From the NCBI RefSeq assembly GCF_003627215.1, contig NZ_CP032677.1, forward strand, positions 873,501-937,500: a DNA stretch of 64,000 nt. Reading direction: 5' to 3'. Of the stretch, positions 8,150-63,957 are shown in pieces (position 1 is the stretch's first letter; each line of letters starts with the position of its first letter). The translations under genes were made by a program, and so were the position numbers. The notes under the pieces were generated by a model. That model saw only the letters and a program-made list of their open reading frames with translations. It made no database searches and had not been told where the DNA came from. Source of the stretch: Pseudomonas sp. Leaf58 (GTDB lineage: Bacteria > Pseudomonadota > Gammaproteobacteria > Pseudomonadales > Pseudomonadaceae).

Positions 8150-9443
<1,294 letters not shown>

Positions 9444-59290: not shown

Positions 59291-59311
59291 TGGTGCCCCG
59301 ATGGGAACTCG
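59291..59311 (-). tRNA. Truncated tRNA 3' end at the island border (remnant)
   Basis: On the minus strand these 21 bases read CGAGT-TCCCA-TCGGGGC-A-CCA: the end of a T-loop, the 3' T-stem strand, a 7-base acceptor strand, discriminator A and encoded CCA. The rest of the tRNA is missing because the sequence changes to AT-rich DNA inside the T-loop. This suggests the displaced end of a tRNA gene used as attachment site, with the intact copy expected at the other island end. The tRNA identity cannot be told. Chance similarity is possible. Confidence 0.45.
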
Positions 59312-59548
59312 TAGTTTAAGTTATCTCGTTGAATTAATTGAGCTATTTTTGAAGTATATAAGAATGTGTACGGATAATTTAATATTTGGCATGCTTTTTG
59401 ATTTTTGTGGCGTTTAATGCTTTTTCTTGGCGCTGGATGGTAGATCATCCGACAAACGGATCCATAGTTGGCATACCTTATATTCGATTAGTCAGAATGA
59501 AATAGCAGTTTGTTATAAGTGATTAGAGTTTTTCAGTTTTTGCTCTGA
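59312..59548. other. AT-rich non-coding stretch at the island's left edge
   Basis: These 237 bases have very high A+T and no plausible gene, only frames without ribosome-binding sites. They probably contain the recombinase attachment site or the 3' region of the leftward operon. No terminator-like hairpin was recognised. Confidence 0.6.
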
Positions 59549-60454
59549 TTACTCACGTTCCAAGTTTCTAGCGTCAGCCGTTACAGCATCCATTATACCT
59601 ACTAGCTCACGCTCTAAATCAGGTTCGAAACGCTGTAAGTAAGCAGATATTGCTTCGTTGCGAAGGAGTCTCGATAAGTAACCTTTGGCTACAACCAGAA
59701 CTAGCATGGTTTCGCCCAATGTATCTTCAACCAGTCGGTAGTCGTGATACAGCCTCTCCATTTCTCTTTCCATTTTTATAATATTTTCGGCGGATACTCC
59801 TTCAGTTGAGTTTTTAGAATCCGTTAAATCCTCAGGCCTAGTAGCAGTTAACACCATTTGTGCATAACGGCCCGTATAGCAATTCGCCGAAATCATCATC
59901 TCTGCAACCTCAATTTGGCGCATCGGCTTCATTTTTCGCAATATTTGGAACACTGGTTGCCCAACCATTCGCGTTTTCAGTAGATCTATGACCTCGGGTG
60001 CTATGCCCTTTAAAAGGTTTTGACGCACTCTGATACGATCAATGTTTACATTGAGGACCTCGGCAATTCTTTCGGCTGACACACCTCTGTCGATTGCTTG
60101 GATGATCATCTTGCTTTCTTGGATTGGTGTCAGTCTATTTATCTGCCTGTTGTACGTGAATCCTTCGTCGTCTGTTGAAAGTAAGCAGAGTGCGTGTTCT
60201 GCTCCAAGCTGTTTTAATGCAGATAGCCGCAGGTGGCCATCAAGAATTAAGTATTTTGGTGGTTGCTCGGCTGACCTAACTGGCTCATGGTGAACGGCGA
60301 GCGGCTCAATAACCCCAAGTTCTCGAATTGATGCCAGAATTGAGAGGTATTTGGGAGTGCCGAGAGCGTTTGGTTGAACTATTCTAGAAGGTAGTAGCTG
60401 CGATAAGGAAATGGTTATTAATCTGCTATCGAACGCATTTTTTACCTCGCTCAT
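59549..60454 (-). CDS. ParB/RepB-like protein 1 (RepB-type)
   Basis: A 301-residue DNA-binding or nuclease-like protein. The N-terminal ParB domain (about 12-110) has I-x-L-S-Q-L-L-P-S-R, I-R-E-L-G-V-I-E-P-L-A-V and L-I-L-D-G-H-L-R-L-S-A-L, a variant of the ParB nucleotide box. A helix-turn-helix region follows (V-S-A-E-R-I-A-E-V-L-N-V-N near 130-145), then a RepB-plasmid-partition-like C-terminal part (I-L-R-K-M-K-P-M-R-Q-I-E-V-A-E). No ParA is nearby, so plasmid-type partition is unlikely. It overlaps ParB-like protein 2 by four bases (ATGA) and is the last gene of the recombinase operon. Confidence 0.85.
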   Translation of the reverse strand: MSEVKNAFDSRLITISLSQLLPSRIVQPNALGTPKYLSILASIRELGVIEPLAVHHEPVRSAEQPPKYLILDGHLRLSALKQLGAEHALCLLSTDDEGFTYNRQINRLTPIQESKMIIQAIDRGVSAERIAEVLNVNIDRIRVRQNLLKGIAPEVIDLLKTRMVGQPVFQILRKMKPMRQIEVAEMMISANCYTGRYAQMVLTATRPEDLTDSKNSTEGVSAENIIKMEREMERLYHDYRLVEDTLGETMLVLVVAKGYLSRLLRNEAISAYLQRFEPDLERELVGIMDAVTADARNLERE

Positions 60455-61347
60455 GCTTCCCCCTTAACTCGTACGGCTAAGACTTGTGGCATGTCTTCAA
60501 TCCCTTCACTTTTCAATAAAGAGCAGAAATATTCGTCTGAGAGGAGCTTTCTCAATGCAGTGACTACGAACAGCAGGCGTTGCTCGCCGATGTCAGCTTT
60601 TTTTACCATAAGCCTTTGCCTGCGAACCTCCGACTGATAAGCATTTAAGAGTTGGCGTGAAGTAGTTATTTTTTCGGGTCTTTTCTGATGGTTGAAACAT
60701 TTTCCGGTGGCGCGTCGATTGTCAATCAAGCGACGAACTTTCATTAGCTGCTCGCCCTTTAAGAGACCATTTTCGTATGCCTCAAGCATTGCGGCCTGAA
60801 TTACAGTGTCATCAGAGCGTGCAACTGTTATAGCAATCTTAATTGGTAACCAGCCTTTTTCCACGGCGCTAATTAGCCGTTCTTCTCCCTGTCGTAATAG
60901 GATGAGAATTCCGCCGATGTAGTGAGGGTCTAGACAGGTTTTTTGAGCGATTTGCTTGGTGGAATAACCTCGGTCATGTAGTGAGCTTATTGCTGCCAAG
61001 AGGTCGCGATTTGAATGCTTTCTTCTAGCTAAATTCTCAACTAGACTGATCAAGTACCTGTCGGCCTCGCTGGCTGTTATGATGACGCAAGGTATGTTTA
61101 GTTCTCCGAGCACTTTGAAAGCCTCGAATCGCCCCTGGCCGCACACAAGATCATAGCCTGAGTCGGTTCGAACTACAGTTATTGGTCTTTTTAAGCCCAA
61201 GTTCGCAATATTTTCTACCAGTCTTGCAAAAACTTTCTTGTTTCGTTGTCGTGGGTTGATAACCCTTATTGACTCAACGGGAATTTTTTCAATCGCTGAG
61301 GCTCGGGCGACGTGCAGCGTCAATGGCGTCTCTTGAGGGGCGTTCAT
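60451..61347 (-). CDS. ParB-like protein 2
   Basis: A 298-residue protein with a ParB/Srx domain at about 18-105: I-E-K-I-P-V-E-S-I-R, the I-A-N-L-G-L-K-R-P-I-T-V strand and C-G-Q-G-R-F-E-A-F, the conserved G-x-x-R motif, then L-V-E-N-L-A-R-R. A helix-turn-helix (G-Y-S-T-K-Q-I-A-Q-K-T-C-L) lies near 130. It is only distantly similar to the downstream ParB-like protein, so the two are not a recent duplication. It overlaps the recombinase stop by one base and protein 1 by four, implying a stoichiometric complex or shared pathway with the recombinase. Confidence 0.85.
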   Translation of the reverse strand: MNAPQETPLTLHVARASAIEKIPVESIRVINPRQRNKKVFARLVENIANLGLKRPITVVRTDSGYDLVCGQGRFEAFKVLGELNIPCVIITASEADRYLISLVENLARRKHSNRDLLAAISSLHDRGYSTKQIAQKTCLDPHYIGGILILLRQGEERLISAVEKGWLPIKIAITVARSDDTVIQAAMLEAYENGLLKGEQLMKVRRLIDNRRATGKCFNHQKRPEKITTSRQLLNAYQSEVRRQRLMVKKADIGEQRLLFVVTALRKLLSDEYFCSLLKSEGIEDMPQVLAVRVKGEA

Positions 61348-62900
61348 TATGCCGCGCTCAACAAGCTGAATCGTTTGCTTAGCGTGGACAAGATTTCCAA
61401 ATTTTCAAAACGATAGAGTTCCAACTCGCGAGGATTAGTGTCGCCAAGTCTAAGATTAGGGGCGACTAAATCAATCATTGGGAAAAGGTAGTAATCTAGA
61501 ATTTCTGTTTCGCCGGGTAGCATGCGGACAGCAACGGTAATGTCCGGGAAGAGACTAAAATCAAAGCGCACCTGCCAGCGTCGGCGCCCGGTAGCTACTT
61601 GTAGGCAGCGACAGAGCACAACGGAAACAGTAAACTCCTCGTTCACCAGTATCAGTTGTGTATTAGGATCTACGGAAATTCGACCACCTACAGCCTCAAT
61701 TTTTTGTAGGGTATCAGAAAGGATTGCGGGGAATCGTTCGCGTAGATGTCGATTGGCCTCTATGTATCCATAATCTCTTGCGGGTTCGTATCCGATTAAT
61801 CGGTAACTATCAATAAGGCTTCCGAAACGTTTTCTATAACAGCTGCTTGAGGGCAGATCTTCCTGTTCATCTATAATAAGACCTGATAGGCAGCCCCTTT
61901 GTTGAAATAAGTCCTTCAAGCTTGAGAGCATTTCCTCATTGGACCAAAACCGTGCGCGAGCTTGGATGATAGCTTGGGCAGCAATGAATAGGGAGTGATC
62001 AACTATCGCTGGGAATGCGGCGTCTGCCCGGATCCATTCATTCGTAGGGTTTGCCGTGCGCGGCATCTTAAGCTTTGCTGATGTATGGTTCCATACATTG
62101 TTCCCTATGTATTTTTCGTTGACTAGTATTTGATGAACTACTCCACGTGTCCATGGCCTATTTAAGTCGGTGAGCATGCCGCGTTTGTTTAGTTTGTCGG
62201 CGATCTCTTTTTCGGTTAGCGCTTTTTTTATGAATGAGTTGTATATTTCTAAAATGACTTCTTGCTCAGGGATCGGGCCGGGAGTGAGAACTACCCTATC
62301 AGTTTGAAGGCTTTTGTATTCTTTGTAGCTTAGGGTTGCTTTGGGTTTTCCTGTTTGATCTATCAATTGGCGGCGCAAGCCATATCCTGCAGCGCCGCCT
62401 TGCCGGTAACCTAGTTGAATTAAACGAGACTGTCCGGCAAATACTTTTACAGAAAGCTCCCGGCTGTATTCTCCAGCCATCATTCGCTTAACGCTTTTGA
62501 TTATGCTGGATACAGGAGAGCCATCATTGACAAATTGTTCCGCGCAGTATTCTACTCGCACTCCCGCCTGCCGGCAGCGTACTTCATAGCTTGCACTGAC
62601 ATCAGGGTCTTGAAAACGCCCCCAGCGGCTTACGTCATAAACGAGAACAGTCGAAAAATCATTATGTTTAAATTCTACGTCCGATAGCAGGTGCTGAAGC
62701 GCTTCGCGCCCTTCTAGACTGAGTCCACTTTTCCCAGAGTCCGTGTAAATTTTTACAATGTTAAGGTTATGTGTCTGCGCATAGATTTTGATGGTATCCA
62801 ATTGGTTTTCTGTAGAATATTGCTGGTGCTCCGTCGACATCCGGACATAAGCTGCCGCCTTATTATTAGCTTCTGCGCTAAACGATTTGACCTGTCGCAT
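61347..62900 (-). CDS. Large serine recombinase (integrase/excisionase type)
   Basis: A 517-residue site-specific recombinase. The N-terminal catalytic domain starts A-A-A-Y-V-R-M-S-T-E-H-Q with Arg20 and nucleophile Ser22. G-L-S-L-E-G-R-E-A-L and V-L-V-Y-D-V-S-R-W-G-R complete the resolvase core. A Recombinase domain follows (about 160-290: I-A-D-K-L-N-K-R-G, V-H-Q-I-L-V-N-E-K-Y-I-G-N-N). Instead of a zinc ribbon, the C-terminal part has R-K-R-F-G-S-L-I-D-S-Y-R-L-I-G-Y near 360 and a long extension. The ATG at 62900 has AGG upstream; a GTG ten codons earlier is possible. It heads the three-gene operon. Confidence 0.93.
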   Translation of the reverse strand: MRQVKSFSAEANNKAAAYVRMSTEHQQYSTENQLDTIKIYAQTHNLNIVKIYTDSGKSGLSLEGREALQHLLSDVEFKHNDFSTVLVYDVSRWGRFQDPDVSASYEVRCRQAGVRVEYCAEQFVNDGSPVSSIIKSVKRMMAGEYSRELSVKVFAGQSRLIQLGYRQGGAAGYGLRRQLIDQTGKPKATLSYKEYKSLQTDRVVLTPGPIPEQEVILEIYNSFIKKALTEKEIADKLNKRGMLTDLNRPWTRGVVHQILVNEKYIGNNVWNHTSAKLKMPRTANPTNEWIRADAAFPAIVDHSLFIAAQAIIQARARFWSNEEMLSSLKDLFQQRGCLSGLIIDEQEDLPSSSCYRKRFGSLIDSYRLIGYEPARDYGYIEANRHLRERFPAILSDTLQKIEAVGGRISVDPNTQLILVNEEFTVSVVLCRCLQVATGRRRWQVRFDFSLFPDITVAVRMLPGETEILDYYLFPMIDLVAPNLRLGDTNPRELELYRFENLEILSTLSKRFSLLSAA

Positions 62901-63009
62901 TGGCGGACCTATCTGGTGGTTTTCTGCCACACCGGTACAGAAATGGCAGGCTTGCGGTATGCCTTTCTGTAATCATCAAATAATAAATTTAGGAAGTGGA
63001 GGTGGAAAA

Positions 63010-63378
63010 ATGATCGCGAAAATGGGCATTTCATTTCCTCTTAGCACAGATGTCTATGCTCACGCTTTAGCATCCGCGCTTTTGGATGAGCTTGGAGCAT
63101 CGCATCGTGCTATAAAAACGCTGCGAAACTGGACTAGTGCGAGTGAGAGAACTGCAAAAAATTGGCTGGCTGGTACCAATGGCCCTAGCGGTCTGCATTT
63201 GATAGAGATCATGAGGCACTCTGATACGGTCCTTCATACCGTGCTTGAGTTGGCGCAAAGGAAATCCATGGTTGCTGGAGTCCTGCTACCTGCCTTGAGG
63301 CAGCGCTTGCTTGACACTGCTGAGCTGATTGATGCATGCCTTGGCCCTAGCTCGCACCCATCAAGTCACGAGGGTTGA
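63010..63378 (+). CDS. Small helix-turn-helix-like protein
   Basis: A 122-residue protein. Residues about 25-60 (A-S-H-R-A-I-K-T-L-R-N-W-T-S-A-S-E-R-T-A, then K-N-W-L-A-G) look like a DNA-binding helix-turn-helix of the kind in which a strand of helix two reads S-E-R-T-A-K-N-W. The C-terminal half is helical. AGGTGG precedes the ATG at 63010. It is divergent from the recombinase gene with about 109 bases between, so it may repress or activate recombinase expression. Family is not firmly recognised. Confidence 0.7.
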   Translation: MIAKMGISFPLSTDVYAHALASALLDELGASHRAIKTLRNWTSASERTAKNWLAGTNGPSGLHLIEIMRHSDTVLHTVLELAQRKSMVAGVLLPALRQRLLDTAELIDACLGPSSHPSSHEG

Positions 63379-63496: not shown

Positions 63497-63525
63497 GATC
63501 TTGATGATTAAGGTAGGTGCAGGGC

Positions 63526-63735
63526 ATGAAACGAACCGTGGAAGGCATGGCGTTAGCTGGCGAACCGCTTTTGCAGCAGGCGCTAGGAGCAATCAGAGCT
63601 CACCGCAGAGCCGTCGAGCGTGGAGCTCCTGAGGATGAAATTGACAGACTGCGTCTTATGGCAGATTCGCTTTTTCAGACAGTCGTGGACTACCAACTTT
63701 TTAAAGCTGGCGGTCTGTCGGAATCGATCCACTAA
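63526..63735 (+). CDS. Small paralogous protein A
   Basis: A 69-residue acidic and basic helical protein. The second half reads D-R-L-R-L-M-A-D-S-L-F-Q-T-V-V-D-Y-Q-L, which is matched by the next gene (E-R-L-R-Q-V-A-E-S-M-F-Q-S-V-T-D-Y-Q-L). It starts at the ATG 63526 after AGGTAGG. I do not recognise the family. Such small paralogues are seen near island integration modules in pseudomonads; the function is unknown. Confidence 0.72.
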   Translation: MKRTVEGMALAGEPLLQQALGAIRAHRRAVERGAPEDEIDRLRLMADSLFQTVVDYQLFKAGGLSESIH

Positions 63736-63750
63736 GGAGCATGATGGTAA

Positions 63751-63957
63751 ATGCCCAATACGCCTGTAATCCTGTACCCAGATCATCCTGCGTACAATCA
63801 TGCTGTAGAAGCCATGCGTCGCTGGCAGGAAGCGAAGGATGCCGGAGCACCTGCCGTGGAGGTGGAGCGATTGAGGCAGGTCGCAGAGTCAATGTTCCAG
63901 TCTGTCACAGACTATCAGCTTCGAGCTTTTGGGTTACGTGGTGGTCCTGTGCATTGA
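63751..63957 (+). CDS. Small paralogous protein B
   Basis: A 68-residue protein, paralogue of the gene just upstream: both share a basic helix (A-V-E-A-M-R-R-W-Q-E-A / G-A-I-R-A-H-R-R-A-V-E), G-A-P and the RLR-x6-FQ-x-V-x-DYQL block. AAGGAG lies at 63734-63739, upstream of the ATG at 63751. The 15-base gap suggests one transcript with protein A. Function unknown. Confidence 0.75.
   Translation: MPNTPVILYPDHPAYNHAVEAMRRWQEAKDAGAPAVEVERLRQVAESMFQSVTDYQLRAFGLRGGPVH

Follow-up and report, generated by a model that had tools for sequence, protein, structure and literature searches.

Gene content and domain architecture

The stretch of DNA considered here, referred to as the window, comprises 64,000 nucleotides of the Pseudomonas sp. 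Leaf58 genome (contig NZ_CP032677.1, positions 873,501 to 937,500 of the forward strand). Close to its right end lies a compact set of four genes, hereafter the quartet, which encodes a large serine recombinase, two unlike ParB-type proteins (ParB1 and ParB2) and a small protein read from the opposite strand (Table 1). The GC content of the quartet is 46.2%, compared with 63.2% for positions 1-59000 of the window. In the list of open reading frames (ORFs), the recombinase and parB1 genes overlap by one base and parB1 and parB2 by four bases, in agreement with the original prediction, which had been made from the letters and ORFs alone and had described an operon of three genes without ParA. 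No ParA-type ATPase was found in the operon, in the adjoining ORFs or among the listed genes of annotated neighbourhoods, for which the plasmid gene tables are incomplete. The trio also stood as a unit of conserved synteny; its description as a three-part module has to be given up, as the co-conserved divergent gene had been missed. This fourth gene matches a family of unknown function, and its product is probably a DNA-binding regulator. For the recombinase, an in-frame ATG at 62900, where the original prediction had placed the end of the operon, yields a protein of 517 aa, a length matching that of close homologues.

The recombinase matches Resolvase (PF00239, E 1.7e-20) and Recombinase (PF07508, E 1.1e-20) and no other domain family; weak sub-threshold rows were disregarded for this protein as well as for both ParBs, and the PF07508 domain is also backed by a structure match. 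A catalytic domain (residues ~25-166) is followed by the recombinase domain (~222-324) and a C-terminal domain (~391-523). The catalytic positions of the resolvase domain, R30, S32, D99, R102 and R105, are unchanged in 22 of 22 aligned recombinases. The absence of the usual zinc ribbon was borne out, as no such family appears at E<=1 in the domain search and C-x-x-C is absent from the sequence; the R-F-G-S-L-(x)3-Y-R-L-I-G-Y segment singled out at the same time occupies residues 368-381. Phage integrases and transposon recombinases are the closest solved structures. The model of the C-terminal domain resembles the homing endonuclease I-Ssp6803I (2ost), a member of the PD-(D/E)XK class that is not among the best 50 Foldseek matches listed for the recombinase, and no convincing sequence relatives of this domain were found in PDB or Pfam. 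The alignment of this domain contains invariant acids; DNA cleavage by it is doubtful because no lysine is invariant.

ParB1 matches ParB_N (PF02195) and RepB (PF07506). For ParB2, the domain search gave RepB (PF07506), and the ParB fold comes from structure comparison. Both of the expected nucleotide boxes, G-Q-G-R-F in ParB1 and D-G-H-L-R in ParB2, are present, and the two proteins are indeed unlike. G-x-G-R and E-N-L-x-R are CTP-binding motifs of ParB proteins. Both are conserved in ParB1; the CTP-binding motifs of ParB2 are degenerate, and the stretch with the E of E-N-L-x-R is absent from it in an alignment with Noc. KorB and Noc are among the closest solved relatives of the two proteins. 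A common operator or parS-like palindrome upstream of the operon was considered and dropped, as the intergenic regions, to which the scan was confined, share none.

Table 1. Features of the quartet and of its surroundings in Leaf58 (window coordinates unless a locus record is named)
Feature	Position	Strand	Remarks
Large serine recombinase	61347..62930	minus	527 aa from GTG 62930
ParB1	60451..61347	minus	298 aa; ParB_N and RepB-C; G-Q-G-R and E-N-L-x-R kept
ParB2	59549..60454	minus	301 aa; ParB fold and RepB-C; D-G-H-L-R box
Divergent small gene	62887..63378	plus	likely start ATG 63010, with a purine-rich stretch before it; 122 aa; matches phrog_23106
Partial copy of tRNA-Leu 3' end	59291..59312		island end
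Intact tRNA-Leu(CAA)	~67630-67714 (L002 10630-10714)		beyond the window
Tyrosine integrase	L002 9147-10535		island gene adjoining the tRNA
Second integrase-family gene	L002 7261-8289		PF12835

Conservation, co-divergence and reduced forms

The arrangement was followed through 137 recombinase loci, of which 51 come from a scan of genome contigs, 6 are plasmid or phage records and 80 are virus-contig loci (the best 80 of 108). In 109 loci, the recombinase has both ParBs no more than 6 kb away. The remaining 28 are made up of 16 loci cut by a contig end, 10 belonging to a divergent sister clade, L163, where a short ParB1 stands alone beside the recombinase, and L054. Under a strict criterion of strand, order and spacing, 97 of the 137 loci show the same order, a recurrence that makes a chance arrangement untenable. 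The short junction overlaps recur across loci, though at some of them the genes are separated by as many as 29 bases or more. Within Pseudomonas, a full-length recombinase is present in 18 of 199 genomes (one with a stop), parB1 is found in the same 18 (one partial) and is adjacent every time, and three further genomes have recombinase fragments only. Weak parB1 matches are numerous in this genus and mostly fall on a 293-aa open frame, which presumably encodes the ParB of the chromosome. Among the plasmid records listed (60 of 143 and 60 of 104, many of them near-duplicates), all 45 with a recombinase of at least 52% identity also match parB2 in the same record; so do two records with a recombinase at 40%, one of which (L231) carries both ParBs. 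Loci, genomes and plasmid records thus bear out the proposed syntenic trio.

The members of the set have also diverged together. Over 51 loci, the identities of the recombinase correlate with those of ParB1 and of ParB2 (r 0.88 in each case), and those of ParB1 and ParB2 with each other (r 0.97). The identities of the divergent gene co-vary with the other three at r ~0.90 (44 loci). By blast, this gene lies upstream of the recombinase and faces away from it in most Pseudomonas loci; with a profile built mainly from Pseudomonas it was found in 65 of the 137 loci, including 18 of the 80 virus loci. The loci are situated on chromosomes, plasmids, islands and virus contigs. The hosts named in the records are Pseudomonas, Alphaproteobacteria, Verrucomicrobiota, Myxococcota and Acidobacteriota, the last three being represented by metagenome assemblies.

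A recombinase tree of 70 rows, drawn from 68 of the 137 loci and containing no Mesorhizobium row, places the 57 ParB-bearing rows together and apart from 12 ParB-less ones (support 90/95, below the level starred by the tool). The root is disturbed by an exceptionally long row, which is a second recombinase from the neighbourhood of L085 and which, together with L054, may be wrongly placed. A ParB-less sister clade of recombinases exists. Two side observations concern this clade: a Massilia plasmid (L229, 4965-11171) bears a close group of three sister recombinases without ParBs, an IS3 transposase separating two of the three, and a virus contig (L192, 7917-11368) bears two.

Reduced forms occur as well. 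On Mesorhizobium plasmids (7 records listed, 3 of 3 inspected), a recombinase of 44-48% identity is followed, after a 4-base overlap, by a single protein in which the C-terminal part of ParB1 (profile positions 203-289) is joined to the C-terminal domain of ParB2 (137-287); no ParB N-terminal domain or helix-turn-helix (HTH) part was detected by profile in this partner on the three plasmids. L054, an Acidobacteria contig, was initially taken as ParB-less. That view was replaced when two small overlapping ORFs of 36 and 42 residues were found to match weakly the C-terminal ends, and only these, of ParB1 and ParB2 (E ~3e-5); they may be working genes or products of decay. Present-day loci hence form a series from a recombinase alone, through a recombinase with ParB C-terminal parts, to a recombinase with two full ParBs, whose CTP motifs are intact in one and degraded in the other. 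Such forms suggest that the C-terminal parts of the ParBs, and not the CTP-switch domain, are what the recombinase needs. As no other portion of the ParBs is left in the Mesorhizobium forms, the core function most likely lies in contact through the C-terminal parts. The stress laid by the original prediction on the nucleotide boxes is accordingly not upheld, the Mesorhizobium forms and, weakly, L054 favouring the C-terminal parts.

Movement between contexts, ends and carriers

Copies of the quartet at unlike places have in common the quartet and at most 0.7 kb of flank, and nothing else of note in the flanks compared. L011 and L012 share 4.3 kb at 95.8% identity; L008 and L009 share 4.7 kb at 95.5%, with L030 at 92%; L043 and L044, two copies within one Bosea genome, share 4.1 kb at 91.1%. 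Additionally, 3.9 kb is common to L021 and L022 (90.8%), to L016 and L050 (89.5%), and to pAtC58 and pAt1D1460 (96.9%), the last pair having four other short matches of 32-191 bases elsewhere. Since similar copies at different places share only 3.9-4.7 kb, the quartet moves as a unit, and these six groups with unlike flanks support the earlier interpretation in this respect.

In Agrobacterium, both junctions of two placements fall within a motif (G-C-C-T-T-G-A-N-N-G-G-A-N-T-C-G-A-A-C-C) that resembles part of a tRNA, namely its T-arm and acceptor end. Agreement between the copies starts within C-C-T-(T/G)-G-A on the left and runs to C-C-T-T-G-A on the right, with flank sequence outside. Blocks of Abi and Fic genes nearby, which lack the quartet, have the same motif at the same border. 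On pAtC58 (L082, NC_003064.2), allowing up to 3 mismatches gives 21 such sites, of which 20 share a strand, and a reversed control pattern gives 0; the motif may represent a dispersed attachment or exchange site there. As a general target it was rejected, since the other genome and plasmid loci scanned do not have it at both ends. Terminal inverted repeats between locus flanks were likewise sought, and among the loci listed no repeat is common to them. L011, L021, L023, L027, L030 and some GC-rich loci score above their own shuffles for inverted repeats. As element termini, the inverted ends of L008, L009 and L030 were discarded for being dispersed intergenic repeats that are present without the element too, and that of L011 for being a multi-copy repeat. 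No general terminal repeat is claimed, because these ends are repeats found elsewhere. In L011, a repeat of ~190 bp with inverted ends (~9165-9373) borders the quartet, and many copies of it occur in several Pseudomonas genomes.

In Leaf58, the recombinase is single-copy in a 6.3 Mb genome of 2 contigs. The quartet lies inside an island of ~8.3 kb that is bounded by a LysR gene and by tRNA-Leu(CAA), the latter adjoining queA. A close relative, L005, has retained this right end. Compared with L007, the surrounding island is 90% identical over 9.4 kb and the quartet 78%, from which the quartet seems to have been swapped independently of its surroundings. Beyond the divergent gene, two related small genes of 72 and 68 aa lie on the plus strand (window 63517-63735 and 63751-63957); their function is unknown, the 72-aa gene matches phrog_9523, and relatives of the pair occur near the quartet in L005, L006, L007, L009, L030 and L047.

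Among ParB-type virus contigs 20 kb or longer, some of which are near copies of one another and which may be fragments, the recombinase lies within 4 kb of a contig end in 29 of 49, with 11.7 expected. This count drew on 70 of the 80 virus loci; of the ten omitted, only L180, whose recombinase is cut by the contig end, reaches 20 kb. Tail, endolysin, spanin or helicase/primase genes adjoin the unit in several virus contigs, and one terminase family was matched in 1 of 6 contigs tested. A helicase/primase-like gene is located 4 bases behind parB2 in L125 (11295-12680) and 12 bases behind it in L145 (3356-4729). The quartet may be the integrase in some phages and a passenger in others. For the L116 prophage, integration by the quartet was rejected, as its left end carries a tyrosine integrase and its right end an integrase fragment.

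Interpretation and relation to known systems

With modest confidence, the quartet can be read from its sequences as a compact mobile integration module equipped with dedicated accessory factors derived from ParB. The serine recombinase would cut and rejoin DNA at the module ends. ParB1 and ParB2 would act mainly through their C-terminal regions as accessory proteins of the recombinase, for example by keeping it or both ends correctly assembled, or by deciding which way the reaction runs. Loading onto DNA and a CTP switch would be contributed by the ParB domains in most members, the motifs being complete in ParB1 and degenerate in ParB2. The module would travel on its own or be carried along in terminal positions on prophages, islands and plasmids. 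Gene order, co-occurrence, co-divergence and joint movement are observed; in this proposal, recombinase activity, the end sites, the mover and the role of the ParBs are all inferred from sequence. More tentatively, the quartet may represent a class of integration systems in which proteins derived from ParB came to assist a serine recombinase as accessory factors or to set its directionality, their C-terminal parts being the core partner and the CTP switch controlling when or where integration occurs.

Several observations weigh against reading the quartet as an integration module. The exact direct repeat across the ends in pAtC58 is 6 bases long, a length reached by 30% of random window pairs (that of pAt1D1460, 8 bases, is reached by 4%), and in four other groups, L027/L028 being left aside, no direct repeat common to the two ends exceeds chance. 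No general target or core is claimed, because the end repeats are weak and some ends lie in dispersed repeats; for the latter reason, some units could have moved by homologous recombination. A clean empty site was found neither at the LysR flank in relatives nor for L009, the L116 prophage, L045 or the L011 flanks. Some copies share more than the unit. L045 and L046 have 4.1 kb in common at 98.4%, together with a 125-base repeat and another 0.4 kb beyond the unit; the common stretch extends far beyond the quartet in L023/L025 (17.7 kb), L008/L081 (19.8 kb), L141/L143 (10.2 kb) and L151/L155 (11.5 kb); and L027/L028 was dropped as a case of movement, the flanks matching too. Two of these pairs offer side observations: the last 125 bases of the shared unit occur a second time in L046 (13447-20764) immediately after it and a third time ~7 kb away, possibly the trace of a further insertion or exchange, and the ~20 kb including the quartet that is 98% identical joins the P. 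aeruginosa megaplasmid p12939-PER (L081) to a P. guariconensis chromosome or contig (L008).

Other integrases and separated ParBs count on the same side. The island around the Leaf58 quartet has a tyrosine integrase of its own; of the integration module originally predicted, movement as a unit stands, and integration of the Leaf58 copy at a defined site is not supported. Tyrosine integrases were also found in 13 of the 42 ParB-type virus contigs tested out of the 49 (12 above the curated cut-off). The sister clade has one in 7 of 7 contigs tested, with the serine recombinase mostly mid-genome (5 of 7), so that this recombinase is probably not the integrase of its phages. L228 has only an N-terminal stretch of ParB1, the opposite of the Mesorhizobium form. 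Furthermore, 48 Sinorhizobium records match ParB2, and 3 of them are among the 60 recombinase rows listed; pSymA, the sole one of the 48 inspected, retains fragments of both ParBs and lacks the recombinase, which is read as decay. Usual separation of the ParBs from the recombinase, the outcome by which the original prediction would have fallen, was not observed, such decayed ParB2-like stretches being the exception encountered.

Other explanations account for part of these data. Passive cargo in hotspots such as prophage ends, tRNA islands and defence islands, with a role in defence or mobile-element competition in which the recombinase edits invader or prophage DNA, would suit the tRNA-Leu island of Leaf58 and the L116 unit, placed at a prophage end beside lysis genes in a prophage with its own tyrosine integrase. 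Of 5 annotated plasmid regions, 3 also have Abi, restriction or Fic genes no more than ~14 kb away, and none were seen in the other two. However, the moves between unlike contexts fit self-mobility, and the closest solved recombinase relatives are integrases and transposon enzymes; PADLOC matched no known anti-phage defence protein over its full length and gave only partial, weak matches (PtuB E 4.1e-4, MTase_II E 7.4e-4). This explanation is unlikely.

A role in maintaining an episomal stage, with the ParBs partitioning or silencing a circle and the recombinase resolving dimers, is distinctly less probable. The ParB fold, the RepB-C domains and the presence on plasmids and virus contigs agree with it, but the lack of ParA in the neighbourhoods described above and the Mesorhizobium forms without a detectable ParB N-terminal domain do not. 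Much the same low probability attaches to the ParBs being KorB/VirB-like transcription regulators of the operon, not involved in recombination. Their kinship with KorB and Noc and the close, outward-facing starts of the operon and the divergent gene would accord with such a role, whereas the separate small divergent gene would be the more usual regulator, the intergenic regions have no common palindrome, and the N-terminal/HTH part is undetected in the reduced forms.

As an integration module, the quartet differs from known systems in several respects. Large serine integrases (SPbeta YokA, Bxb1, phiC31, TP901-1) use a single small directionality factor; compared with these and TnpX, the Leaf58 recombinase has no zinc ribbon that could be found, a C-terminal domain that models like I-Ssp6803I, and two ParB-type proteins in fixed association instead of such a factor. 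By contrast with I-Ssp6803I itself, that domain is fused to a recombinase; it has no sequence match to the endonuclease and contains no invariant lysine. The ParBs resemble RepB of repABC and the ParB/Noc/KorB CTP switches in their ParB fold and RepB-C domain and, in ParB1, in the nucleotide box and E-N-L-x-R; in contrast to those systems, the operon has two ParB-type proteins behind a recombinase and no RepA/ParA or RepC, and ParB2 is without the E of E-N-L-x-R. RIT elements, with three tyrosine recombinases, and Tn554-type elements are compact mobile units of neighbouring recombination genes that are obligate partners, but their recombinase class differs, and the Leaf58 partners are ParB-like rather than recombinases. 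No published description of the gene set appeared in the titles and abstract openings of a full-text literature search, with subscription journals and preprints mostly outside its coverage.

If the proposal is true, the ParB-type CTP switch, whose known roles to date lie in segregating chromosomes and plasmids and in gene regulation, would also govern site-specific recombination. Two fields would thereby be linked, and an integrase of three proteins with its own control input would become available for testing. It would also explain many protein pairs that are labelled plasmid partitioning protein RepB and have no adjoining ParA.

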